From: Nitrospirota bacterium
GTDB taxonomy: Bacteria > Nitrospirota > Thermodesulfovibrionia > Thermodesulfovibrionales > Dissulfurispiraceae
Assembly (NCBI GenBank): GCA_009773415.1
Contig: WSNO01000015.1
Coordinates: 1 to 59,959, forward strand
Direction of reading: 5' to 3'
DNA: 59,959 bases
The notes beneath the pieces are model-generated. The model was not told the origin of the DNA. It was given only the letters and a program-made list of their open reading frames with translations, and made no database searches. Shown one piece after another: positions 39,798-49,933 of the stretch. The position numbers were made by a program, and so were the translations under genes. Every line of letters starts with the position of its first letter. The stretch's first letter is position 1.

Positions 39798-39989
39798 GAG
39801 GACTCGCTACATTGGGCATAGTGATTATTTTACCTGAAAAACTGCGCGGCGTTCGCATCCTGGTGAAGATGTGCTGACAGCCCGGACAATGCGGAGCCCT
39901 GCCCGCTGAGAGTGCAAACCGTCAGCTTGTCTGTATTCTGCCTCAGAGAAAGAACTCTCTCCTTCCGGCTTTTTGAGGTAAAATACCGC

Positions 39990-41720
39990 ATGGAGACGTT
40001 CAACCCTGCACACGGCATGATTGGCCTGCTGATAAGCCTGCTTGAGCGGCTTGGCATTTTTGCGGCTGGCTTTATTGTGCTGATGCGGTTTAACGCTTTC
40101 AAGCGCCTGATTACCGGAAAGGCGACGCGCTATGAAAAACTGACCCTTTCCGTTGTATTCGGACTCTTCGGCATCGCGGGCACCTATCTGGGCGTGCCGG
40201 TGCATGACGCTATCGCAAACTCGCGTGTCGTAGGCGTTGCGCTGGGCGGCATTCTGGGCGGCCCGCTCGTCGGCTTCTCTGCCGGACTCATTGCGGGCGG
40301 ACACCGGTTTTTGATCGACATCGGAGGGTTCACCGCGCTTGCGTGCGGCATTGCGACCATTGCGGAAGGATGCTTCGGGAGCCTGCTCTATCACAAAATC
40401 AAAAAAGAGCGCTTTGATCCGCAGGCGGCATTTATTGTGGGACTGGCGGTTGAGATTCTTCAGATGATTATCATACTGCTGATCGCCAGGCCCGTCGATG
40501 CGGCATTTCAGCTTGTTCAGGTGATCGCAGTACCGATGATTCTCGCCAACTCCCTGGGCCTCGCCGTATTTGTGAAGCTGGTCGAGTCCATGTCAAAAGA
40601 GCAGGAGCGGTTCGGGGCGTATCAGGCGCAGACCGCGCTGAAAATCGCCCTCCGCACCCTCCCGATACTGCGTAGCGGGCTGAATCATGAGTCGGCAACA
40701 AAAAGCGCCCGGATTATTCTCGAAATGACCGACCTGGACGCGGTAGCGCTCACCGATGAACGGCAAATCCTTGCGCATGTGGGCGCTGAGGCTGATCACC
40801 ATAAGCCTCACACTCCCCTGCTGACCTCCGCGACGCGCCATGCCCTCTCTTCCGGCGAAATAGTGGTAGCATCAACAAGAGATGAAATAGGCTGCACGCA
40901 TCCGTCCTGCGGCCTGGGATCAGCCATTATTGTTCCGCTCAAACGTCAGGAAAAGACTATTGGAGCATTGAAGCTCTACCGGCTGAAAGAACAGCGCATC
41001 AGTCCGCTCGACATGGAACTGGCAAACGGGCTGGCGCATCTTTTCTCAAACCAGATTGAACTTGCGGAGCTCGACAACCAGCGCAAGCTTGCAAAAGAGG
41101 CTGAAATCAGGGCGCTTCAGGCACAGATTAACCCTCATTTTCTCTTCAATACGCTGAACACTGTCAGAAGTTACATGCGCACCGACATCGAGACCGCCCG
41201 GCGTCTCATGGTGAAACTTGCGGAATTTCTGCGGAAAAACATGAACCCCGGCAATGAAGACATGCCTCTTTCCGTCGAGATTGAACACTGCAAAACCTAT
41301 ATTGAAATTGAATCAGCCCGTTTTGACGACCGGGTAAGGGCGCGTTTTGACGTTGACAATGCCGCGCTTGACTGCCGGGTTCCGCCGCTGATACTGCAGC
41401 CCATCGTCGAAAATGCCCTGAAGCACGGCATTCTTCGGAAGGAGTGCGGCGGAGAACTTCTTGTGTCTGCCCGCCGGGAAAACGGCGCGCTCCGGATCAG
41501 TGTTGCCGACGACGGGGAAGGCATGACCGGCGCGACACTCTCCGGCCTGTTCAGTGATCAAGGATCGGCGTCCGGCGGGGCGTCGGACAGCGGTTCGGGA
41601 ATCGCCCTCAGGAATATAAATGCGCGGCTTGTTGCGCTGTACGGATCGCGCCACGCGCTGTCCGTTGAAAGCACTCCCCAGAAAGGAACGGTTGTTTCGT
41701 TTACCGTGCCGGTGCATTGA
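39990..41720 (+). CDS. LytS/BtsS-type membrane sensor histidine kinase
   Basis: From ATG 39990 the protein is 576 residues. The N-terminal 5TM-5TMR LytS module (to about residue 200) includes VALGGILGGPLVGFSAGLIAGGHRF. A GAF domain spans roughly 220-360. The His_kinase domain has the phosphorylatable histidine in ALQAQINPHFLFNTLNTV, and an ATPase lid follows (DDGEGM, SGIALRNINARL). It probably autophosphorylates and passes phosphate to the adjacent response regulator. Relatives sense pyruvate or cell-wall state; the signal here is unknown. An upstream extension is open but lacks family sequence; a TAAAAT box (39979-39984) lies close to the ATG. Confidence 0.88.
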   Translation: METFNPAHGMIGLLISLLERLGIFAAGFIVLMRFNAFKRLITGKATRYEKLTLSVVFGLFGIAGTYLGVPVHDAIANSRVVGVALGGILGGPLVGFSAGLIAGGHRFLIDIGGFTALACGIATIAEGCFGSLLYHKIKKERFDPQAAFIVGLAVEILQMIIILLIARPVDAAFQLVQVIAVPMILANSLGLAVFVKLVESMSKEQERFGAYQAQTALKIALRTLPILRSGLNHESATKSARIILEMTDLDAVALTDERQILAHVGAEADHHKPHTPLLTSATRHALSSGEIVVASTRDEIGCTHPSCGLGSAIIVPLKRQEKTIGALKLYRLKEQRISPLDMELANGLAHLFSNQIELAELDNQRKLAKEAEIRALQAQINPHFLFNTLNTVRSYMRTDIETARRLMVKLAEFLRKNMNPGNEDMPLSVEIEHCKTYIEIESARFDDRVRARFDVDNAALDCRVPPLILQPIVENALKHGILRKECGGELLVSARRENGALRISVADDGEGMTGATLSGLFSDQGSASGGASDSGSGIALRNINARLVALYGSRHALSVESTPQKGTVVSFTVPVH

Positions 41721-41722
41721 CC

Positions 41723-42481
41723 ATGACCATTCGAGCCTGCATTATCGACGATGAAGCGCCGGCCCGGCGCGAACTCAAGTTTCTGCTGGGCCAGATTGAC
41801 GATGTTGAGGTGGTCTGCGAGGCTGCCAACGGGGCAATCGGACTGAAAAAGATTCGCGAGCACTGCCCGGACGTGATTTTTCTCGACATCAACATGCCCG
41901 GACTGAACGGGCTGGAACTTTCACAGATTCTTGCGGACCTGCCGACGCAACCGCTTGTCGTCTTTGCCACGGCGTATGAGCAGTATGCTCTTCAGGCGTT
42001 TGACGTCAGCGCGTTTGACTATATTCTGAAGCCGTTTGAGCTGGAACGTCTCCAGAAAACTTTTGCAAAAATGCGCAAGATCGTGCACCCGCCGGTGTCC
42101 CCGACAGAAGCTCCGCCGGCGCTCCCTGCCCTGGAGTCCGGAAACAGGCTCCTCAAAATACCGGCGTACAAAAACGACCGTATCATTCCGCTCGCACCTG
42201 ACCGGATTCTGTGTGCGCGTGCTGCTGAGGGAGACGTGCTCATTCAGACGTTCGACGGACAGTACATGACAAAATCCACCCTGAATGATCTTGAGCAGAA
42301 ACTTGCCTCCCATGGCTTTATCCGCACGCACCGCAGCTCGCTGGTGAATCTGCAGCATGTTGCCGAAATCATTCCGTGGTTTAACGGCAGCTACAAGCTT
42401 GTCATGAATGATCGGCAGAAAACCGAGATTCTGGTCAGCCGCTACCATGCGAAGGAGCTGAAAAAGCATTTTGACCTGTAG
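41723..42481 (+). CDS. LytR/AlgR-type response regulator (REC-LytTR)
   Basis: From ATG 41723 the protein is 252 residues. A receiver domain (ACIIDDEAPARRELKFLL, with phosphoacceptor Asp55 in FLDINMPGLNGLEL and KPFELERL) precedes a C-terminal LytTR DNA-binding domain, marked by LKIPAYKNDRIIPLAPDRI, LEQKLASHGFIRTHRSSLVN and NGSYKLVMNDRQKTEILVSR (landmarks). It is the partner of the kinase directly upstream. A TTG at 41717 overlapping the kinase stop is an alternative start, but the ATG fits family length. Targets are not evident. Confidence 0.9.
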   Translation: MTIRACIIDDEAPARRELKFLLGQIDDVEVVCEAANGAIGLKKIREHCPDVIFLDINMPGLNGLELSQILADLPTQPLVVFATAYEQYALQAFDVSAFDYILKPFELERLQKTFAKMRKIVHPPVSPTEAPPALPALESGNRLLKIPAYKNDRIIPLAPDRILCARAAEGDVLIQTFDGQYMTKSTLNDLEQKLASHGFIRTHRSSLVNLQHVAEIIPWFNGSYKLVMNDRQKTEILVSRYHAKELKKHFDL

Positions 42482-42704: not shown

Positions 42705-43097
<393 letters not shown>

Positions 43098-44450
43098 CTA
43101 GTTCAGATTGTACGCCTTTTCCCCGTGCTGGCTTTCGTCGAGGCCCGTAACTTCGTCTTCGGCATCGACCCGAAGACCGACAACCGCCTTGATTATCATA
43201 AAAATGATAAAAGTCATGATAGCGGTATAGGCAATCGTAACGCCGCATGCAATAATCTGGACCATGAGCTGACCGGGATTGCCGTACAGAAGACCCTTGC
43301 CTGCTTCATTGATTGCCGGGTCCGCAAAGATGCCGGTCAGAACCGCGCCGAGCGTGCCTGCTATGCCGTGAATGCCGAATGCATCGAGCGCATCATCATA
43401 GCCGAGCTTCGGCTTCAGATATGCAACTGCCATGTAGGGAACCACTCCGGCCAGAGCACCGATGACGATCGCGCCGGAGATATTAACAAAACCCGCGGCC
43501 GGCGTAATTGCGACGAGACCGGCTACCGCTCCCGATGCCAGGCCAAGGACCGTCGGCTTCTTGTGATGCATCCATTCCGTCATCATCCACGCAACCGCGG
43601 CAACAGCCGTTGCAGTGTTTGTGTTGATAAACGCGGCGCCGGCAAGGCCGTTTGCGCCGAGGGCTGACCCCGCGTTAAATCCGAACCAGCCGAACCAGAG
43701 GAGGCCGGCTCCGATGACACAGAGGGTAAGATTGTTCGGAATCAGGTTCGCCTCACGGCGCTTCCCGAGAAGAATCGCGCCGACCAGGCCCGCAAAGCCG
43801 GCGTTGATATGAACGACCGTGCCGCCTGCAAAGTCGAGCGCGCCGAGCTTCGCAAGAAAACCGCCGCCCCAGACCCAGTGCGCAACAGGAATATACACCG
43901 CGGTCATCCAGAGTACGCAGAAGAGCACCCAGGCAGAGAACTTCATCCGCTCGATATACGAACCGCTTGCAAGCGCGACCGTAATTGCGGCAAAGGTAAG
44001 CTGGAACACGATAAAGATGTATTCGGGGATCGTCTTTGCCAGGTCGGTGATGCTGTTGACGCCGATACCGGCCAGCATGAACTTGCTCATGTCGCCGATA
44101 AACCCGCCGACGTCTCCGCTGAAGGTAAGCGTATATCCGTACACAACCCACAGAATGCTGACGATGCAGAACGCCACAAATGACATAGCCATGGTGTTCA
44201 GGGCGTCTTTCTTCTTTGCTAGACTGCCGTAAAAGAGCGCAAGCCCCGGCAGAGTCATCAGCATTACAAGGGCGGTCGCGACAATCATCCACGCAGTATC
44301 GCCGGTATCAATCTTCATCGGAGCCGCTGCTTCAGCAGGTGCCGCAGGTGCTGAGACTGCCGGAGCCGGAGCCTTTTCATCCGCCGCAAGGGCAAAACCT
44401 GAGAAGCAGAGCAGCGCCAGAACCATCATTATACTCAGAAGCCGTTTCAT
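43098..44450 (-). CDS. amtB: Ammonium transporter
   Basis: The protein is 450 residues from ATG 44450. A cleavable signal ([22 protein letters not shown]) and an Ala/Pro-rich linker precede an 11-helix Amt domain. Amt hallmarks are [40 protein letters not shown] and [19 protein letters not shown]. The conserved His pair regions are intact. The upstream extension of the frame is ignored because the signal peptide starts here with AGGAGGAA just before it. AmtB takes up ammonium and is gated by PII, encoded next. Confidence 0.97.
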
Positions 44451-44486
44451 GATATTCCTCCTTAAGTGCATTCCCTGCCTTCGTGA

Positions 44487-45362
44487 TTAGAAACTGAAGG
44501 TCAGGCCGACGCCGTAGACAAAGTTCTTGTCGAGCTTGCCGTTTACGTTATACGAAACACCGTCCACTTCCTTCTTTGCCTTGCTCGACAGCGGGAACGT
44601 AAACTGCGCCGTCGGGGAGACTGCAAACCCCTTGCCGAGCGGAATCGTAAAGCCGGCCTTCAGCATACCGTCATGAAACGCGCTGTATTTTTTTCCCGAA
44701 TAATCCCCGGCAGCGCCGTCATATGTCTTCCAATAGTCGCCGTCACCGATAAAGTAGGCTGCCGACGCACCGAGATCCAAAGTGATGTCGCCGGTGGCGA
44801 TCTTGTAGATCGGCTCGGCATGCGACAGCGACATGTTGATATACGTTCCCGGATATGAGCGGATGTCGCGATACACAGCAAGAGTCGGCTTGCCGTACCA
44901 GTCATACGTGGCGGAGAGAAAGAGCTCTTCGGTCTCCTTCGTATACTTGGTGCCGTAATATATAAAGCCGCCGGTAATGCTCAGCTTGTCGAGGGGCGAA
45001 TACGTATAGCTCAGCGTCAGATCAGTTTCGTTCCAGCTGCGCTTGCCCGGCCCCTCATTCGTAAGCTCGGGGAAAAAGCTCTGCGTGCCTTTCTGGCGGC
45101 TGTCGATATTGCCCCACATGGTTGCCGTAAACCCTTTATATGAGGCGCTCAGCTGCGGCTGGAGCACAACGCTGTGGGTGCTCAATTCATAGCCGCGAAA
45201 AATATACCGGTTATACGCGCCGAGAGAAACGCTCCCGGTTACCTTGTCTTCTGCAGGGGCTGCCGCTGCGGGCTTTGCCTCCTCTGCCGCATATGCACTG
45301 CCTGCTCCCAATACGCACGTTGCCACAACAGATACCATCATTTTCTTCCATAGTGCCTTCAT
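44487..45362 (-). CDS. TorF-like putative porin
   Basis: From ATG 45362 (GAGGGAACA before it) the protein is 291 residues. The signal peptide (MVSVVATCVLGAGSAYAAE) is followed by the TorF-family start TGSVSLGAYNRYIFRGYELS. Alternating beta-strand segments follow, with the terminal strand NFVYGVGLTFSF ending in Phe, typical of outer-membrane barrels. TorF porins often lie near amtB-glnB in Proteobacteria, so it may help ammonium or another nitrogen compound cross the outer membrane; that is inference. It lies 47 bp after the HTH gene and 36 bp before amtB. Confidence 0.8.
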   Translation of the reverse strand: MKALWKKMMVSVVATCVLGAGSAYAAEEAKPAAAAPAEDKVTGSVSLGAYNRYIFRGYELSTHSVVLQPQLSASYKGFTATMWGNIDSRQKGTQSFFPELTNEGPGKRSWNETDLTLSYTYSPLDKLSITGGFIYYGTKYTKETEELFLSATYDWYGKPTLAVYRDIRSYPGTYINMSLSHAEPIYKIATGDITLDLGASAAYFIGDGDYWKTYDGAAGDYSGKKYSAFHDGMLKAGFTIPLGKGFAVSPTAQFTFPLSSKAKKEVDGVSYNVNGKLDKNFVYGVGLTFSF

Positions 45363-45409
45363 TGTTCCCTCCTCGTTATTTTTCGATATAAAATGACTGC
45401 TCCGGAAAA

Positions 45410-45598
45410 TCACTGTTGCCTGCTGCCGTCCGCCTTAACCTCCCTTCGTATTCCGTATTTCATCATCTTGTAGCTGATCATCCGCTCCGTTATCCCAAGC
45501 CTTCGGGAAGCTCTCGCCATAACCCATTCGCACTCCTGAAGGGCATGAACTATCTCGTCTCGCTCCATCTGCCTGATTTTCTCCTTTAGAGAACTCAT
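45410..45598 (-). CDS. Stand-alone NifA/Fis-type HTH protein
   Basis: The 62-residue protein is essentially a Fis-type helix-turn-helix. It reads EIVHALQECEWVMARASRRL, then GITERMISYKMMKYGIRRE, closely matching the C-terminus of NifA encoded at 48302-49846 ([20 protein letters not shown], then [16 protein letters not shown]). It has no receiver, GAF or AAA+ domain, so it could bind DNA but not drive sigma-54 open-complex formation. It is first in the operon with the porin, amtB and glnB. It may compete with NifA for enhancer sites or act as an architectural factor; that is inference. Confidence 0.75.
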   Translation of the reverse strand: MSSLKEKIRQMERDEIVHALQECEWVMARASRRLGITERMISYKMMKYGIRREVKADGSRQQ

Positions 45599-45638
45599 AG
45601 TGCTCTCCTCGCCTGGCTTTTGCTGTATTCATGATAAA

Positions 45639-45653
45639 GCCATTTTCATGCCA
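45639..45653 (-). promoter_or_regulatory. Sigma-54 promoter of the HTH-porin-amtB-glnB operon
   Basis: On the minus strand TGGCATGAAAATGGC has GG and GC separated by exactly 10 bases, as in the -24/-12 consensus, with TGGCAT as a good -24 and TGGC in place of TTGC at -12. Transcription would begin near 45627, about 30 nt before the HTH gene. RpoN control fits a nitrogen-response operon and the NifA-type activator nearby. Confidence 0.65.
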
Positions 45654-45706
45654 GAGCATTATCTAACTGAATTAAAAGCATATTTTTATTTTCGTGAGGC
45701 TACAAT

Positions 45707-45724
45707 AATGTATTTAGATACATT
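45707..45724. promoter_or_regulatory. Palindromic site upstream of the nitrogen operon
   Basis: AATGTAT, TTAG, ATACATT forms a perfect 7-bp inverted repeat with a 4-base spacer, about 55-70 bp upstream of the sigma-54 element. It looks like an operator or enhancer site. It does not match the NifA site TGT-N10-ACA, since the spacing between TGT and ACA is 8. Confidence 0.45.
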
Positions 45725-46186
45725 CTTGTAGCTTTTTCTGCGACAAATGTCGGTTTAAAGCGGCGGGACTGCATGATGTGAACCCGGAATGGTCATTGGA
45801 AGCGAGCAGGAACGAGATACATGGTGCCGTTGCTTTGTGTTGTTGTTCCGGCGCTTGCATGTTCTGACTTGAGAGTCGCTCTGAAGCGTACGGGTCATGG
45901 AGGGGTTGCGGCATGAACCAAAATTATCATTGGCAATAGTCCAAAGCATGGCGGAACGGGCAACAAAGCGGATTTATTCGGCGAGACGGCACTTGCAGGG
46001 ATGGTGCCTGGCGAATACCCCGGAGGACGGCTGGATGCCGTCCGGCAATGAGCGGCATTGCTCGTCCTGTCGGGCTAATGACGATTCCGGGTTGAAAGGA
46101 AAGTTCCGACGGTGCAGATGAATCCGGCGGCGCGACAAACGGCGAATGCCGGCTTCAGCGCCGCTCTTCAGCAGATTTTTTTCAGA
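45725..46186. other. Intergenic region upstream of the nitrogen operon
   Basis: No gene is convincing here. A 74-codon plus-strand frame (45897-46121) has no family resemblance. Two adjacent small hairpins occur on the plus strand: 46025-46043 (GGACGGC and GCCGTCC, 5-base loop) and 46045-46061 (GCAATG and CATTGC). The stretch is about 460 bp, long for this compact window, and may hold enhancer sites or a small RNA. Confidence 0.35.
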
Positions 46187-47443
46187 CTATTCCGCGGACA
46201 AGTCGGCGACCACTTTCACCAAAGCCTTCAGATATTCCGGGTCGAACTCTTCCCGCTCGCTCGTCTCCCGTGTCAGCAGTGAAAGCGCCATGTATGGCGT
46301 ATGAGAGTACCGGTATGGACGTGGGGTAGTCAATGCATCATAGCAGTCTGTCAGGGCGGCAATCCTGCCGAATGCCGTAATCTTGTTCCCTCTCAATCGA
46401 AGCGGATACCCCGCTCCGTTCAGTTTCTCATGATGCTGCAACACCGCCAGAAGCGACTCTTTCGGAATCTCTGCATTGCCTTCCAGCATTCTTACCCCTT
46501 CAACGGGATGCTGCTGCATCAGGCGGAACTCCTCTTCAGACAACTGCCCCTGTTTATTGAGCACCTCGGCAGGGATGGTGCTCTTCCCGATATCATGCAG
46601 CATCGCACCGATGCCGAGCTTTTCAATCTGCTCCTGCGGAAGTCCAAGAGTTGCTGCAAGAGAGATGGAGAGCACCGTCACATTGATGGAATGAGTGTAG
46701 GTATAAAGATCATGATTCCTGAGCGACATCAGGTCGCGGGCGTCAACCTCATTGTTCAGGACAGCCTCGGTCATCGCCCCGACTGCACCGGCAACCTGGC
46801 TTATTTTCTCCAAATCGGTCGGGCTCGAGAGCACCTCCCGAATCATTATCTTGGAGTTTTCTTTCATGCCGATCGCCCTGCTCTTCCGCTTCACCTCCGC
46901 AGGAAGCGCTGGCGACGACAGCATGGCATGCAGATAGTCCTGATACAGCGCAACATCCTCAATGCGGATAGCGAGGTCCCCCTTTACACGGAAACCATGC
47001 GGCGGAATCTGGACCGGTCTGTTGACCGATGCTTCAACCACCTGCGTGAAGGCCATGTTGCCGACCTCAAACAGGCTGAACGTTATTCTGGAGTGAGGGA
47101 TGAACAGGCTCTTGTCGACCAGAAGCGTCTTTTCGATCTGGTGGTAGTTCTGTTTTTTCCGGGAGTATGCCGAAAACCTGTTCTGCTCTTCAGACTGCGG
47201 GGCTTCCTCGATCTTATGCCCGAGGTACATCTCGATGCGTGAAACATCACCCTCGATATAGACTGTCTCTATTCCGAGCTGCTGAAGGTTTTTCAGCATG
47301 GCGTCGCTGAAGTGCGTCCACTTCGGAAACAGATGAGAATACATCTCTCCGTCGCGGGTATAGACATCAAACGGAATGGCCAGCCCGACCAGAAGCTGGC
47401 TAATCGGAATCGGAATGCGCTCTGGCGTCTGCAATTTGTTCAC
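46187..47443 (-). CDS. HD-GYP domain protein
   Basis: From GTG at 47443 (AGGA 6 bases upstream) the protein is 418 residues; a TTG 18 bp earlier is a poorer alternative. The C-terminal half is an HD-GYP domain. Its motifs are HSINVTVLSISLAATLGL, LHDIGKSTIPAEVLNK, HPVEGVRML, HHEKLNGAGYP and FGRIAALTDCYDALTTPRPY. HD-GYP proteins hydrolyse cyclic di-GMP. The N-terminal 200 residues contain no domain I recognise, with a stretch like the DUF3391/HD-GYP partner. It lies 70 bp from parA on the same strand. Confidence 0.9.
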   Translation of the reverse strand: MNKLQTPERIPIPISQLLVGLAIPFDVYTRDGEMYSHLFPKWTHFSDAMLKNLQQLGIETVYIEGDVSRIEMYLGHKIEEAPQSEEQNRFSAYSRKKQNYHQIEKTLLVDKSLFIPHSRITFSLFEVGNMAFTQVVEASVNRPVQIPPHGFRVKGDLAIRIEDVALYQDYLHAMLSSPALPAEVKRKSRAIGMKENSKIMIREVLSSPTDLEKISQVAGAVGAMTEAVLNNEVDARDLMSLRNHDLYTYTHSINVTVLSISLAATLGLPQEQIEKLGIGAMLHDIGKSTIPAEVLNKQGQLSEEEFRLMQQHPVEGVRMLEGNAEIPKESLLAVLQHHEKLNGAGYPLRLRGNKITAFGRIAALTDCYDALTTPRPYRYSHTPYMALSLLTRETSEREEFDPEYLKALVKVVADLSAE

Positions 47444-47531
47444 AAAAATCCTTTCTCCCAAAATAAATCCCGGCGGATTGCATCAGCATATAGTTTTTTA
47501 ATGTTATCACATTTTCGTGTGCCGCAAGACC

Positions 47532-48305
47532 CTAAAACAACAGGCTGTTGTCGTTCAAAATCTCTTTGGCCAGCATCAGGTATCCCTGCGCGCCCGATGA
47601 GTTCGGCGCGTACAGAATCGCGGGCTTCCCGTGGCCGGGGGCCTCGGCCAGCACGACATTGCGGGGAATTATCGTATCGTACACCTTTGACCGGAACACC
47701 TTCCGCACATCGTCCACGATTTGGCGTGAAAGCGAGAGGTGGCGATTGTGCATGGTCAGAAGGATGCCTTCGAGATCGAGCGTCTCGTTGAATCCTCCCC
47801 GGATGCGCCAGAGCAGCTTGATGAGAAGGCTCAATCCCTCGACCGCGAAATGCTCACACTGCACCGGCACCAGAACCGAATGCGAAGCGACCAGCGCGTT
47901 CAGCGTCAGCAGCCCGAACGAGGGCGGACAATCAATGAATATGTAGCGGAATTCGCTTTTCAGCGGGTCAAGAATGCGCTTCAGCACGCGCTCCCTGTCT
48001 GCCTGCTCAAAGAGCTCAATCTCGGAAACGTACAGATCCATCGTCGTCGGAATGATGTAAAGATTCGGAACTATTGTGCGCCGGAGCACGTCATCAATCC
48101 CGCACTTGCCGGAATAGAGATCGTAGAGGCCGAGTTTCACCGCATCGCGTTTGATGCCGAGACCGGTCGTCAGGTTTCCCTGCGGATCGGAATCAATAAC
48201 CAGGACGGTTTCATTGGAGAGCGCGAGCGCCGAGGAGAGATTCAGCGCCGTTGTGGTTTTCCCGACGCCGCCCTTCTGGTTCGCTATCGAGATGATCTTG
48301 TTCAC
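47532..48305 (-). CDS. Orphan ParA/Soj-type ATPase
   Basis: The 257-residue protein has the deviant Walker A of ParA ([14 protein letters not shown]) and switch [12 protein letters not shown]. Walker B-like [16 protein letters not shown] and the [15 protein letters not shown] stretch also match chromosomal ParA/Soj. It has no ParB partner next to it; instead its GTG start overlaps the nifA stop by 4 bp. ParA-type ATPases position chromosomes, chemoreceptors, carboxysomes or regulators. A role in localising NifA or a c-di-GMP pathway is speculation. Downstream is an HD-GYP gene. Confidence 0.9.
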
Positions 48306-49846
48306 GGAGAAAGCGTTCTGGCAGGCCGGATGCTGTATTTTTTCATCTTATAGCCGATCTGGCGGGCGGTTATCCCGAGCAGACGCGCGGCTTTTGCCTG
48401 ATTCCAGGCGGTTTTTTCGAGCGCATCGAGGATTCTGGTCTTTTCAATGTCTTCTATTGCCGTCGGGAGAGCCTCTTTCAGCTGTGAACCGTACTTTGCC
48501 TTGAGGGAGGAGTCACGCATAGAAACCGGCAGATCGGAAACCGCTGCCGTCTTTCCGCGAGCCATAACAACCAGCCGCTCTATGGCGTTTTCGAGTTCCC
48601 GGACGTTTCCGGGCCATTCATAGGCATGGAAAATGCTTATCACCGCCGCATCCAGAGCCAAAGTTCGGCCGTTTTCCTCGTTGTATTTCCGGAGGAAATG
48701 TTCGGTAAGCGGCCCGATGTCTTCACGGCGCTCGCGCAGCGGAGGGAGGTACACCGGAATGACATTCAGCCGGTAATAGAGATCCTCCCTGAACCTTCCG
48801 GTGGAGACCAGCTCTTCGAGATTGCGACTCGTTGCGGCAATCAGCCGGATATCCACCTTGATCGTTTTTTCTCCGCCGACACGCTCAAACTCTTTTTCCT
48901 GGAGCACGCGAAGGATTTTCGGCTGAAGCATGACCGGCAGGTCTCCCACTTCATCGAGAAAAACGGTTCCTCCGTCCGCCAGCTCAAACCGGCCTTTCCT
49001 GAGAAACATCGCACCGGTAAAAGCACCCTTTTCATGACCGAACAATTCCGACTCGAGCAGACCTTCCGGGATTGATGCGCAGTTGAATTTTATGAACGGT
49101 CCCTTTTCGCGGGAACTCATGTAATGAACGGCCCTGGCGACGAGTTCCTTTCCGGTCCCGCTTTCGCCGAACAGAAGGATATTCGCGCGCGAGGGCGCAA
49201 TGCGGTGGACCGTCTCAAACACTTCCTGCATGCGGTCCGACTGGCCGATCATGTTTTCAATGCGGTATTTTCCCTTCAGCTCGCGCCTGAGGTTTTCCTT
49301 TTCGACAAGAATAGCCTCGCGCTCCTTTTCAACATCCTTATAGAGTTTGGCAGACTGGGCGATCAGCGCGGCGATAATCTTGAGCAGCCGCATGTCGTCT
49401 TCAAAGGAAATGCCCTTTCCTTCAAAGAGCCGGTCGACGCTGAGAACACCCAGCACATCGGTCTTGAACTTTATCGGCACGCACAGAAAGGCTATATTTT
49501 CCTTGCTGATTTCCTTCCTCGCCCCGGTCTTGTTCAGAAACAGCGGCTCTTCCCCGACATTCGGCACCATCATCGGAATGCCGAGCTTTGCCACGCGGCC
49601 GATGATGCCTTCCCCAAGACGGTACCGGCCGCGCTTGATCTCATCGGCAGTCATGCCATGCGCCGCAATGATCGAGACCTCCCCGTCACTCCTCAGCGAC
49701 ACGGTCCCGCGCTTCATGTCGAGGTACTCGGCAAGCACCCGCATGACGCCGTGCAGGTTCTGCTTCAGGTTCAGGGAGGAGCCGAGCAGCTTGCTGATTT
49801 CATAAAGCGCCGTCAGCTCTTTCGCTTTATCGTAGGAATGTTTCAC
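48302..49846 (-). CDS. nifA: NifA-type sigma-54-dependent activator
   Basis: The 514-residue protein starts with GTG at 49846. An N-terminal GAF domain (about 20-170) precedes the AAA+ domain (about 205-440) with Walker A GESGTGKE and the sigma-54-contact loop GAFTGA. A Fis HTH ends the protein ([22 protein letters not shown]). The GAF-AAA-Fis order and HTH match NifA. The linker after the AAA+ domain lacks the cysteine motif of oxygen-sensitive rhizobial NifA, so this looks like the Azotobacter/Klebsiella-style linker. No nif structural genes are in the window. Related activators cannot be fully excluded. Confidence 0.85.
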
Positions 49847-49933
49847 GCTCGATAGTTTATCACCGGTCCTTCAAAAATGGAAATGCCGGCACGAAGCGCG
49901 ACATTTTTGTATCGTTCCGGCGGGCGGTCCGGC

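Follow-up and report, generated by a model that had tools for sequence, protein, structure and literature searches.

A conserved stand-alone NifA-type helix-turn-helix protein leads amtB operons across a class of Nitrospirota and may feed back on nitrogen regulation

The classic binding site of NifA is TGT-N10-ACA. Among the solved DNA-binding domains, that of Aquifex aeolicus structure 2M8G belongs to Nif-like homologue 2, and Fis is said to have been proposed, by Morett and Bork in 1998, to descend from the DNA-binding domain of NtrC. The NtrC proteins of Caulobacter and Rhodobacter are without the GAFTGA motif and no longer activate sigma-54, and some genes are repressed by the Caulobacter protein (PMC10274813). 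In the window analyzed here, a 59,959-nucleotide stretch of a Nitrospirota genome of 2.46 Mb, a helix-turn-helix (HTH) of the NifA type is encoded entirely on its own, as the first gene of an operon that continues with a porin, amtB and glnB.

The gene (45410-45598, minus strand) starts with ATG behind the Shine-Dalgarno sequence AGGAG and encodes 62 amino acids; because the stop-to-stop frame around it has just 72 codons, the HTH is truly stand-alone. Pfam assigns it to HTH_8 (PF02954; E = 1.5e−11, 44.2 bits against a curated cut-off of 22), and neither AAA+ nor any other Pfam domain reaches its cut-off in the protein. The NifA model TIGR01817 scores 32.6 bits, below its cut-off of 528.85. 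The protein is therefore not itself a NifA, having no AAA+ domain with GAFTGA and no N-terminal GAF domain, and shares with NifA the kinship of the HTH. Nor is it a Fis, a protein of about 98 residues with an N-terminal beta-hairpin arm, since it has 62 residues, modeled from residue 2 onward as just three helices. The AlphaFold model (pLDDT 87.6) shows these three helices, and the nearest solved folds found by Foldseek are 2M8G, 4L5E and 3E7L, followed by Fis, all with probabilities of 1.00 and, because the chain is short, weak E-values (0.02 and up). The best fold match, 2M8G, superimposes with an rmsd of 0.7 Å over 46 columns; it is also the closest solved structure by sequence, ahead of 9QQ6, a Nif-specific regulatory protein.

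Within its genome, the closest paralogue of the HTH is the corresponding domain of the NifA encoded 2.7 kb away (47% identity over 49 amino acids, E = 3.4e−9); all other activators score far lower, the next paralogue reaching E = 5.6e−4. In a tree of 130 HTHs (56 columns), the stand-alone and NifA HTHs stand together, apart from 23 of 24 HTHs of other sigma-54 activators; the remaining one sits on a very long branch. The NifA HTHs cluster in a single group set off from the stand-alone HTHs, a separation that the tree resolves poorly, with the exception of a NifA truncated by the end of its contig (L106). We therefore rejected the idea that the HTH gene is a recent copy of the neighboring nifA. 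The core of the recognition helix reads LGITERMIGYK in the stand-alone HTH and LGITxRQIGYK in NifA and differs at two positions (ERM versus xRQ); more broadly, Nitrospirota NifA proteins have xRQ(I/L)GY(K/R), and the stand-alone family has ERMIGYK. Three full-length NifA-like activators from other phyla (L065, L068 and L069) have a recognition helix reading ERMMGLR, with ERM as in the stand-alone HTH and not RQ. The sequence-only reading had described a 62-residue Fis-type HTH, close to the C terminus of NifA, that keeps the DNA-binding part without AAA+, a description that agrees with the lone HTH_8 match, with the best paralogue and with the tree, where the HTH groups with the NifA HTHs, apart from nearly all other activator HTHs.

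A protein search of the 60 nearest genomes and of a genome contigs collection recovered close stand-alone relatives, up to 72% identical, throughout the class. When the matches of a phylum survey were sorted by E-value and frame length, 105 of the 167 surveyed genomes of the class carried a stand-alone copy; beyond Nitrospirota, the protein scan of genome contigs returned full-length activators, and stand-alone copies came from Nitrospirota only. Sixty-six short open reading frames were extracted, with the truncated NifA L106 among them. L4, E12, A30 and K47 are invariant in the HTH alignment, and the LGITERMIGYK core is nearly so. Consisting of just the C-terminal domain of an activator, the gene could be taken for a chance reading frame or a decaying nifA fragment. 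We regard this explanation as having next to no probability: it is ruled out by the class-wide conservation and by third codon positions more than twice as variable as the first and second (mean pairwise differences 0.23, 0.19 and 0.56 for the three positions), and nearly all copies have their own start and promoter.

The operon lies on one strand. The HTH gene is followed by an outer-membrane porin (44487-45363, minus strand), which has an ATG at 45363 with its own Shine-Dalgarno sequence and an alternative GTG start at 45413. It has no Pfam or NCBIfam match over the cut-off, and we take it to be TorF-like. Next come the ammonium transporter gene amtB (43098-44471, minus strand; PF00909, E = 1.5e−131; TIGR00836) and glnB for the PII signal protein (42705-43043, minus strand; PF00543, E = 2.7e−32). 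A pair encoding a LytS/LytR-type sensor kinase and a LytTR regulator (39912-42481) is convergent to the operon, and the pair is conserved next to it in the sister species (L075, 7124-9582). On the other side lies nifA (48302-49846, minus strand), whose product has GAF, AAA+ with GAFTGA, and HTH domains and is a true NifA by the NCBIfam cut-off (TIGR01817, 575.7 bits against 528.85); nifH and rpoN are both present in the genome. The end of nifA is overlapped by a gene for a ParA-like ATPase, which is followed by an HD-domain gene (46187-49846; also L084, 14168-16455), and nifA and parA are adjacent in G020 as well.

Upstream of the HTH gene, the −24/−12 elements CTGGCATGAAAATGGCT (45638-45654, minus strand) form a sigma-54 promoter scoring 29.0 of a maximum of 31.4, a value reached by none of 100 shuffles. 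Sites scoring at least 25 lie 28 to 59 nt 5′ of the start codon in 59 of the 66 related upstream regions (shuffled 95% quantile, 24.7). In all 44 HTH copies with at least 5 kb of downstream sequence, torF, amtB and/or glnB follow on the same strand, a TorF gene lying within 400 nt in 27 of them and AmtB and GlnB genes each within 6 kb in 38. Five loci (L051, L054, L057, L061 and L064) have an additional amtB-glnB unit, led by a second HTH that has a sigma-54 promoter of its own. The earlier proposals that the HTH heads an operon with porin, amtB and glnB and that a sigma-54 promoter drives this operon are thus borne out. Both outcomes named beforehand as refuting the earlier reading, an HTH unrelated to NifA and an open reading frame absent from relatives, were checked, and neither was obtained. 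We found no description of an amtB operon led by a NifA-type HTH in the open-licence papers searched. The analysis confirms that the gene encodes a conserved stand-alone Fis-type HTH of NifA kinship and is a leader gene of amtB operons across a bacterial class.

Counts of the motif ACA-N4-TGT revealed operator units 5′ of the −24 box (117 observed against 2.5 expected in 65 regions). In the window, a promoter-proximal unit (45702-45711) and a distal one 18 bp from it (45720-45729) both lie inside a 32-bp palindrome (45700-45731). No other such pair occurs in the genome, and the combined pattern of units and sigma-54 promoter is matched at the HTH operon alone; over 60 genomes, the pattern has about 90 matches against a handful for a reversed control. 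At HTH-led promoters, the 18-bp spacing places the starts of the units about 56 and 74 bp upstream of the −24 box, and the same layout occurs at several torF-, glnB- and amtB-led promoters. At other amtB genes, the units begin about 65 and 134 bp ahead of that box. The amtB-led promoters L070, L072, L081, L095, L096, L164, L170 and L172 form a second class, in which the two units are about 69 to 70 bp apart and not 18, a hint of DNA looping or of binding by two dimers. Upstream of nifH (L109, L184-L210), two units stand 20 bp apart, and this spacing is what creates TGT-N10-ACA between them; no such canonical NifA site lies near the HTH operon. Because the units that stand in tandem at the HTH operon also make up the nifH enhancer, it is plausible that the HTH shares sites with NifA.

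The unit is also found upstream of nifA (21 observed against 1.0 expected in 27 regions). In the family to which the window belongs, the ACATTTTTGT unit overlaps a sigma-70-like promoter, TTTACA-N17/18-TAAACT (49846-49911; L212-L237), with the nifA start codon a few nucleotides downstream of the −10 element, and the nifA promoter has no good sigma-54 site. In the window itself, the intact unit (49901-49910) is shifted upstream. Judged by this layout, the unit occupies what looks like a repressor-type position, that is, an operator for nifA autorepression, and nifA may be transcribed with almost no leader.

Five genomes (G010, G011, G051, G058 and G059) have torF- or glnB-led operons with no HTH between the promoter and the first gene, and the units are unchanged there; G010, which is without the HTH, also still has the unit at its nifA promoter. 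The units are therefore activator sites, with the activator and not the HTH as their main reader, and they do not count as evidence for the HTH; on the same ground, we rejected an operator dedicated to it. Most likely, the activator is NifA. Only NifA among the 21 activators in the genome has a matching HTH, nifA adjoins the operon in several genomes, and the pattern of units and promoter is found in 34 of 47 genomes with NifA versus 4 of 13 without it (P = 0.009). Among the 60 nearest genomes, 21 of the 47 with NifA have no detected nifH; NifA must have another role in them, which suggests that it acts as a general activator of nitrogen assimilation. Alternatively, another sigma-54 activator of the NtrC type could drive the operon through the units, with the HTH antagonizing that protein. 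This alternative draws on G013 and, more weakly, G017, which keep the pattern where NifA was not detected, and on the different unit spacings at amt and nifH promoters. However, the matching HTH, the gene neighborhood and the co-occurrence just described all argue for NifA, and we consider a different activator unlikely. The HTH as a DNA-binding partner for an activator without one was likewise rejected, as reading the C termini of activators brought no such protein to light.

We hypothesize that the HTH is a NifA-derived stand-alone DNA-binding domain that regulates the nitrogen regulon by feedback, a reading to which we give slightly less than an even chance. NifA, the presumed activator, would bind ACA-N4-TGT upstream of the sigma-54 promoter and switch on HTH-torF-amtB-glnB. 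The HTH, as the first product, would then bind the same class of half-site, probably as a dimer assembled on the DNA. Without AAA+, it cannot activate sigma-54; it would sit on the enhancer sites, and possibly on the nifA operator as well, without activating and so damp both the operon and NifA. We infer activation by NifA, binding of the HTH to the units and the negative effect alike. Competition with NifA or feedback at ACA-N4-TGT sites is plausible from the shared motif, and the HTH probably fine-tunes the nitrogen switch. Taken as a whole, the earlier interpretation finds support in part.

Several observations favor feedback regulation: the NifA-type HTH without AAA+, its first place behind the promoter in 59 of 66 cases with torF, amtB or glnB downstream in 44 of 44, the operator unit common to amt, nifH and nifA promoters, and the overlap of the nifA unit with the sigma-70-like promoter. 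The duplicated operons also bring their own HTH and sigma-54 promoter, as expected of a local autoregulator. In addition, a NifA DNA-binding domain in isolation binds the NifA enhancer unaided; this domain is monomeric and binds DNA at about 20 µM (PMC10590331), and a competitor of this kind would therefore be weak unless abundant or cooperative. Against feedback stand the unchanged units at HTH-less operons and at the G010 nifA promoter, with no HTH-specific site, and the pattern in G013 without NifA. HTH and NifA occur together in 91 genomes, and the HTH occurs without NifA in 14; with genomes taken as independent of phylogeny and incomplete drafts included, their association is significant among the 60 nearest genomes (P = 0.012) but not class-wide (P = 0.14), and strict nesting of the HTH in NifA-positive genomes was rejected.

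The two recognition-helix positions that set the HTH apart from Nitrospirota NifA also count against feedback, and they raise the possibility of an independent regulator whose ERM helix binds other sites, in a different gene set or at sigma-70 promoters, while the operon is merely shared. The sites at its own promoter, being independent of the HTH, fit this possibility. Yet most of the recognition helix is common to both proteins, so the HTH probably reads NifA half-sites, and its gene is consistently kept ahead of the amt operon; an independent role therefore seems improbable to us. The Fis-like fold and the recurrence of two or more units at each promoter, always 18 bp apart, would also suit a positive architectural cofactor, which would sit beside NifA on the tandem units and sharpen amt activation by Fis-like DNA bending or by aiding assembly of the NifA hexamer. 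The two-unit layout is also found at HTH-less operons, however, and thus does not require the cofactor; we find this role doubtful. These readings overlap, and the confidences attached to them do not sum to one.

In its broadest form, the proposal is that free NifA DNA-binding domains form a family spanning the class and close a negative loop at amt, nif and nifA sites, with NifA inducing its own truncated domain from a sigma-54 promoter. We hold this form only tentatively, as possible but rather less than evenly probable. If true, a domain of the activator itself would have become a natural dominant-negative that an entire bacterial class has retained. The operator sites, for their part, outline a cis code for the nitrogen regulon of a poorly studied phylum, in which one unit serves the amt, second amtB, nifH and nifA promoters at spacings that differ by promoter.

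Compared with the described systems, the HTH has in common with the C-terminal DNA-binding domain of NifA (TIGR01817; PF02954) its sequence, its three-helix layout and its grouping in the tree, whereas it is encoded alone, without GAF and AAA+, and its recognition helix has ERM where that of NifA has RQ. The A. aeolicus domain 2M8G is the closest solved match by both sequence and fold but, unlike the HTH, is a domain within a full-length sigma-54 activator. Fis resembles it as a stand-alone Fis-type HTH with a matching fold, but Fis has about 98 residues, an N-terminal arm and broad binding and is encoded elsewhere, whereas the protein described here has 62 residues, is tied to the amtB operon and has a NifA-type sequence. 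The feedback proposal would show an activator family yielding its own small modulator through the DNA-binding domain alone, as proposed for Fis from NtrC. In the NtrC proteins of Caulobacter and Rhodobacter, as here, the HTH of an activator family is employed without activation of sigma-54; those proteins retain their receiver and AAA+ domains, whereas in this class of Nitrospirota the HTH stands alone.
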